43,713 nt of DNA, from contig JAKSOW010000013.1 in the NCBI GenBank assembly GCA_024405395.1, positions 1 through 43,713 on the forward strand, written 5' to 3'. The notes beneath the pieces were generated by a model. The model saw only the letters and a list, made by a program, of their open reading frames with translations. It was not told where the DNA came from and made no database searches. A program made the translations under genes and the position numbers. Numbering within the stretch: position 1 is the stretch's first letter; each line of letters opens with the position of its first letter. Origin of the DNA: Kiritimatiellia bacterium. GTDB taxonomy: Bacteria; Verrucomicrobiota; Kiritimatiellia; RFP12; UBA1067. This document shows positions 19,345 through 19,894 of the stretch, piece by piece.

Positions 19345-19363
19345 ATCCGTTGTGCACACGGAT
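19345..19363. promoter_or_regulatory. Imperfect palindrome upstream of the -35 box
   Basis: ATCCGT (19345-19350) and ACGGAT (19358-19363) are inverted around TGTGCAC. It lies 18 bp upstream of the -35 box of the glycosidase operon. It resembles the two stronger palindromes further up but has a longer spacer, so it may be a separate or degenerate operator. Confidence 0.4.
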
Positions 19364-19388: not shown

Positions 19389-19404
19389 ATTCGTGCGCAC
19401 GAAT
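19389..19404. promoter_or_regulatory. Operator-like perfect palindrome, copy 1
   Basis: ATTCGTGCGCACGAAT is a perfect 16-bp palindrome. It matches the plan of the Bacillus AraR operator (ATTTGTACGTACAAAT), differing only at symmetric positions. AraR binds through a GntR-type winged helix. The centre is 66 bp from copy 2. No regulator gene is present in the window. Confidence 0.65.
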
Positions 19405-19453
19405 CGATTTGCCGACTGGGGGGACTTCGCGAATCGACTGTAGGGGGAATGCA

Positions 19454-19471
19454 AATTCGTGCGCACGAATT
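19454..19471. promoter_or_regulatory. Operator-like perfect palindrome, copy 2
   Basis: AATTCGTGCGCACGAATT is an 18-bp perfect palindrome containing the same 16-bp core as copy 1. The two sites could bind dimers cooperatively or allow looping upstream of the glycosidase promoter. Confidence 0.65.
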
Positions 19472-19484
19472 ACCGAATTGGTCG

Positions 19485-19650
19485 TAGCAACTTACTGGAT
19501 ATCGGGAAGGCCTCAGTGCACTCGTCCTTGGCGGCAAATGCCTTCCTCCGTTGGCGTATGTGACGCCTCCTGGCATAAAACGCCACGCAGATCAAGCTAT
19601 CTTAGATTTCATACACTTGCATGGAGATTTTCAGCATTACAGCATCTTGA
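19485..19650. other. Part of a gene-free stretch between operators and repeat array
   Basis: Together with the features around it, this belongs to a 590-bp gene-free region (19328-19917). No coding sequence was supported on either strand here, and apart from a weak 6-bp inverted repeat (TGGCGT with ACGCCA) nothing stands out. The piece at 19785-19894, between the repeat array and the murJ terminator, also shows nothing. Confidence 0.5.
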
Positions 19651-19784
19651 CGATTCACCGAAAGTTCACCGGGAATTCACATTCGATTCACCTCCGATTC
19701 ACCGGGGATTCACAAAAAACAGACGATTCTTGTGAATCGCTGGTGAATCGAATGTGAATTCCCGGTGAACTTTCGGTGAATCTA
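19651..19784. repeat. Array of 11-bp TTCACC units forming a 41-bp perfect inverted repeat
   Basis: Six 11-bp units of the form CGATTCACCGA occupy 19651-19716. Five complementary units such as TGGTGAATCGA occupy 19730-19784. The arms 19652-19692 and 19742-19782 are perfect 41-bp inverted copies. A nested 9-bp pair (GATTCACAA at 19707, TTGTGAATC at 19730) lies within the 49-nt spacer. TTCAC occurs once per 11 bp throughout the left half. It could form a cruciform in DNA or a very long hairpin in RNA. It is not followed by a T tract and is not near enough to a stop codon to be a plain terminator. Confidence 0.93.
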
Positions 19785-19894
19785 CAAAACGGCCTAACGA
19801 CCATTTCCGAACAACATAGACACAAAGTGGGAGATATGAATGTTCCTCCGCAAACTTTCCTCATTCACCTCGCGCACGCAGATCAGAACACGGC

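Follow-up and report, generated by a model that had tools for sequence, protein, structure and literature searches.

The 134-bp palindromic array of 11-bp units in the window, the 43,713-nt stretch analyzed here, is probably the hairpin part of a composite, non-coding dispersed repeat of ~490 bp (19389–19878). Jointly with this assignment, our favored reading is that the repeat is a recently amplified non-coding foldback element, similar to MITEs and BIMEs, in which the phased arrays would be the binding sites of a mobilizing protein.

Anatomy of the element in the window

The array consists of six TTCAC units on the + strand (starts 19654, 19665, 19676, 19687, 19698 and 19709) facing five inverted units, read as GTGAA (starts 19732, 19743, 19754, 19765 and 19776), and the spacing is 11 bp throughout except across the loop. 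These coordinates bear out the six plus five units at exactly 11 bp described in an initial annotation, as well as its perfect 41-bp arms, the longest perfect arm running from 19652–19692 against 19742–19782. When mismatches are allowed the arms extend to 56 bp at 93%. The left arm can be written as six 11-bp units of the form RTTCAC(C/A)NNNN (19652–19714, + strand), followed by the loop (19715–19731, no strand) and by a right arm of five inverted 11-bp units (19732–19782, − strand) whose outer 41 bp are perfectly complementary to the left arm. The motif TTCACN6TTCAC occurs nine times in the window versus 0.04 times expected from shuffles.

Upstream of the hairpin lies a second module, referred to herein as the P module, whose left boundary is a 16-bp palindrome, ATTCGTGCGCACGAAT (19389–19404, no strand). 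An identical palindrome (19455–19470, no strand) follows at a distance of exactly 66 bp, and between the two are two GACTGTAGGG-type repeats (19411–19454, + strand), each opening a 22-bp register (19411 and 19433) that is common to 16 copies. The ATTCGTGCGCACGAAT pair is present at 17 loci of the genome, exact at 16 of them and with one mismatch at the 17th (contig C267); in the 16 exact copies the palindromes and their 66-bp spacing are invariant and the sequence between them varies. Since GACTGTAGGG-like repeats recur at +22 and +44 in 16 copies aligned in register, the palindrome module as a whole follows a 22-bp register. The initial annotation had placed the operator region of a glycosidase operon beside the array, but these palindromes belong to the same dispersed composite repeat, and their recurrence at 17 unrelated loci rules out an operon-specific operator. 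Just before the element there is also a small palindrome, ATCCGTTGTGCACACGGAT (19345–19363), that is terminator-like on both strands.

In most full copies the hairpin module is framed by ~10-bp inverted CGTGTGCGAG-like ends, which lie 277–336 bp apart from motif start to motif start (+167/+492 in C3, +167/+484 in C33, +165/+483 in C264 and +271/+580 in C244). In the window the right end, CTCGCGCACG, is clear (19869–19878, − strand, on which it reads CGTGCGCGAG; 9/10). The probable left end, CGTATGTGAC (19555–19564, + strand), is weak, with 7/10 matches to CGTGTGCGAG, and its position agrees with the +165 to +167 found in C3, C33, C110 and C264. Matches to CGTGTGCGAG of at least 9/10 occur at ~0.19 per kb on both strands over the surrounding loci as a whole. 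Two copies, C33 and C110, can be aligned from the first palindrome through the right inverted end, and the element has a G+C content of 49% versus 62% for the window. Inspection by eye found that left, inverted right and one-armed half-modules all share the end motif and an A+T-rich stretch with GATAA/TTATC motifs, and we therefore read the full hairpin as two inverted half-modules. In half-modules of the TTCAC type, GATTCACCGAAAGTTC leads into the array after the A+T-rich stretch, again as judged by eye.

The array belongs to a genome-wide family

Using pattern and DNA searches, the counts from which may be low, we located ~24 related 11-bp arrays, distributed over 20 contigs of the 4.04-Mb genome to which the window belongs (G000, whose contigs carry C-numbers; the window is contig C35). 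C113 has three arrays, C3 and C218 have two each, and one array is found on each of C33, C35, C110, C130, C201, C207, C208, C228, C237, C238, C244, C246, C249, C264, C267, C69 and C135. A pattern of three phased TTCAC units matched this genome 15 times, on five contigs, and the reversed pattern matched twice. By unit the arrays are of TTCAC, TTCCCC or TTCGC type, and by shape they are two-armed hairpins or single arms, the latter in C113, C130, C201, C237 and C246. The unit sequences vary (RTTCACCNNNN, RTTCCCCNNNN, ATTTCATTCGC-like and GACGCGAATGT) while the 11-bp period is constant, and the 11/22-bp register is kept across TTCAC, TTCGC, GGTACCCGA and GGGTCTCAAAATTCCC arrays despite the change of unit. 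Other 22-bp arrays lie beside the hairpin: GTCGGGTACCCGAGA in C244, C135, C208, C238 and C267, and GGGTCTCAAAATTCCC in C69; in C113 the neighboring array is TTCGGTTAGTTG at 22–23 bp. At the C69 locus (L269 1905–2142), beside a hairpin half-module, GGGTCTCAAAATTCCC is repeated four times at 22 bp, and 11-bp arrays of GACGCGAATGT and GGCGCTTATGC come next.

Many copies are mosaic, with hairpin type, 22-bp array type and half-hairpins in differing combinations, and the copies may therefore not represent a single defined mobile unit. C130 and C246 are alike up to the second palindrome and different beyond it, which indicates that modules have been exchanged. Some copies are nearly identical or closely alike although they occupy different loci (C201/C237, C130/C246 and C208/C238/C267), which points to recent copying. 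The genome-wide arrays and palindrome pairs strongly support the earlier suggestion of a repeat family with its own spread. Of the two circumstances that the initial annotation had tied to a one-off duplication, absence from the relatives searched was indeed found, whereas a lack of similar arrays elsewhere in the genome was not. Template switching can produce perfect inverted arms, but a dispersed family whose independent sequence variants occupy at least 20 contigs leaves virtually no room for a one-off local inverted duplication or an assembly artefact, which we regard as ruled out by the genome-wide family.

The base changes in one arm had been described as mirrored in the other. This holds for the window copy and for the TTCAC/TTCCC type, in which the arms of eight copies match their own partners better than the arms of other copies (permutation p = 5e-5), suggesting that arms are homogenized within copies of this type. 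The TTCGC type is an exception: no preference for the own arm was detected (permutation p = 0.76), and several of its copies are recent duplicates. Homogenization by template correction and selection for pairing both fit the data.

The window array folds far more stably than shuffled sequences in both directions (z ~ −17 for the folded strand and −16 for the other), and a strong fold was obtained for most copies of either unit type. As 11 bp is also close to one turn of A-form RNA, a transcribed hairpin could be envisaged that acts as a terminator, an attenuator or a long double-stranded RNA for RNase III. Such an RNA function is nevertheless highly improbable: the two strands are equally structured, the array matches no Rfam family or tRNA, no promoter-like site was found in its region, the adjoining palindromic module resembles DNA recognition, and the one-armed arrays alone are unable to form a hairpin. 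A terminator was excluded, as just one stem inside the palindrome has a T-rich tail, and this stem, at the loop, is small, with 7 pairs.

Genomic settings and distribution

The copies are intergenic and lie among unrelated genes, including murJ, rpoB, sigma-70, priA, fumarase, a ROK kinase and GH123, and the orientation of the element relative to its neighbors is not fixed. Other genes adjoining copies include, in C267 (L114 6030–8039), a defence-like gene with MTES_1575 nuclease, AAA_12 and DUF3320 domains; in C113 (L094 7805–10923), two AAA_14/DUF4143 ATPase genes interleaved with half-modules, three of which fall within ~6 kb; and in C3 (L097 18–2312), a gene for a protein with a caspase-fold (Peptidase_C14) domain.

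Comparison of orthologous gaps, as had been proposed earlier, was informative at one locus, fumarase. In G000, where the element is present, 607 bp separate this gene from the next, compared with 32 bp in the congener G001, where the neighboring gene is the best match to the G000 neighbor (112/290 residues identical). The murJ gap itself is not syntenic in G001, as synteny breaks after murJ. Searches of related genomes for the phased 11-mer did not extend the family beyond its own genome with its ~24 arrays: neither the 40 relatives covered by pattern searches, one of them a congener, nor 388 genomes of the phylum yielded anything comparable; tandem 11-bp repeats with other units do occur there.

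Plasmid and phage collections gave no DNA match to the element, and plasmids gave none to a 22-bp array. The family was likewise not found in IMG/VR, in which 81 records have four TTCAC units at 11 bp; the four of these viral contigs that were inspected, L205 (7100–7400), L171 (1150–1300), L197 (both ends) and L223 (1–120), have plain 11-bp TTCAC arrays, arranged as inverted pairs in two of the contigs, and no paired-palindrome module. Outside this genome the exact palindrome pair turned up only in Rubrivivax pictus (NZ_BJCL01000038; L098 2914–3410), where AGTTCGTGCGCACGAACT palindromes stand in tandem ~60 bp apart with alternating spacers. This array shares the 14-bp core palindrome and a similar spacing with our family but is otherwise unrelated, being tandem with unrelated spacers and no hairpin, and the likeness could be coincidence.

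A foldback mobile repeat as the favored explanation

Lineage restriction, unrelated neighbors, the 32/607-bp gap and similar copies at separate loci together form the pattern of a recently amplified non-coding repeat. Features by which MITEs and foldback elements are recognized were found, namely dispersed non-coding copies, terminal inverted repeats (weak in the window copy) and one empty site. We infer from these observations that the element is mobile and that a mover exists. It would behave as a foldback miniature transposable element with short inverted-repeat ends and two inverted half-modules, each with a tandem 11-bp array, and an adjoining module of paired palindromes in a 22-bp register. 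Since the register is constant while the units change, and the palindromes are exactly six 11-bp steps apart, the arrangement suggests proteins aligned on one face of the helix. The phased protein-binding array put forward in the initial annotation is to this extent plausible, judging by the 11/22-bp phasing of the DNA. The mover would most likely be a DNA-binding protein acting in trans (a transposase, a recombinase or a replication protein) that occupies one helix face along the 11/22-bp arrays and moves or copies the element; we favor a trans-acting mobilizing or replicating protein in view of the lineage-specific, intergenic and mosaic character of the family. To judge from the flanking genes checked, none of the copies examined has a transposase gene attached to it, and family motifs are lacking within ~1.3 kb of the only Y1_Tnp gene that was found. 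Visual inspection of aligned boundaries revealed no clear target-site duplications.

The same constancy bears on a possible, though unlikely, alternative, a functional BIME-like binding array of the chromosome whose sites are kept for a nucleoid-associated, HU-like or regulatory protein that organizes DNA or regulates neighbors. In that case dispersal would have come first and the present role would be a host function. The exact palindromes and 66-bp spacing in 16 copies around variable intervening sequence, the 11/22-bp register kept while unit sequence changes, and the HU-DNA_bdg genes adjoining two copies are consistent with such a role, but the unrelated neighbors, the lack of a fixed orientation to them, and the failure to find the element in the single congener or in the rest of the taxonomic family sampled argue against it.

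These two copies also raise a replicative alternative. The composites of C207 and C135 lie between a DUF3987-type gene directly beside the copy (L090 3634–4887 and L268 2591–3847) and an HU-DNA_bdg gene on the other side. The DUF3987 proteins at these two loci share 68% identity. They resemble replicative primase/helicases of phages, having distant relatives in 129 phage records, some of which are annotated as such. The element could accordingly act in cis for the replication or mobilization of a small integrating replicon that has genes for a DUF3987-type primase/helicase and an HU-like protein, with most copies being orphaned origins made up of iteron-like 22-bp arrays and a hairpin; iterons of ~22 bp are usual in plasmid origins. 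We consider this decidedly unlikely, as the DUF3987/HU setting is seen in only two of the ~24 copies, the C135 DUF3987-like protein has no Pfam match at E 0.01, the C207 HU match falls short of the curated threshold, the genes scanned yielded no integrase, and plasmid and phage collections do not contain the element. With two loci and domain matches that are partly sub-threshold, the DUF3987/HU link is a lead only. An equally slim chance attaches to a broader proposal, that the family represents a new class of bacterial mobile or satellite DNA with helically phased 11- and 22-bp arrays, free in sequence and fixed in register, which would rely on a DUF3987 primase/helicase together with an HU-like protein in place of a classical transposase.

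Comparison with known systems

By analogy, a mobile repeat of the kind we favor would work most like the foldback transposons of eukaryotes and the MITE/BIME repeats of bacteria. FB, Galileo and Tetris likewise have inverted repeats of short tandem subunits around a loop, a variable number of subunits and non-coding copies, whereas the family described here is bacterial and ~300 bp long, with units of exactly 11 bp, an adjoining palindrome-pair module and no transposase gene attached to the copies examined. Bacterial MITEs and the RAYT-mobilized REP, REPIN and BIME repeats are also short, intergenic, non-coding and palindromic, with mosaic combinations and lineage-specific distributions; our elements differ from REP/REPIN/BIME repeats in being hundreds of bp long with phased 11/22-bp arrays. 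The iterons of R6K-type plasmids are 22-bp direct repeats in helical phase, but the present copies are dispersed in the chromosome with no Rep gene at most of them. Only two copies have a replication-like (DUF3987-type) neighbor, and this is not a Rep initiator.

REP/REPIN sequences are 20–40-bp palindromes with a GTAG or CGTC tag (PMC3733652). A REP/RAYT system was ruled out, as the ATTCGTGCGCACGAAT palindromes have no such tag and no copies flank the single Y1_Tnp gene. The ends of IS21-family elements have direct repeats, each with two conserved contact blocks ~10 bp apart (PMC10122671), and are comparable to our 22-bp arrays; the 66-bp palindrome pair and the 11-bp foldback array are not IS21 features, and no IstA/IstB genes were found among the flanking proteins scanned. 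A CRISPR array was also ruled out because the 'spacers' are homologous among copies, and there were no cas matches among the neighbors.

Significance

The dispersed phased foldback repeats described here form an apparently undescribed family, probably of parasitic mobile DNA, and we found no description of such a family in the open-licence literature. Most non-coding repeats of bacteria are simple MITEs or short REP palindromes. A foldback element in which 11-bp subunits stand in tandem, the register is constant across sequence-unrelated units and modules are swapped would broaden what is known of the anatomy of mobile DNA in bacteria. If it is the register rather than the sequence that is conserved, the binding logic of the partner protein would be directly testable.
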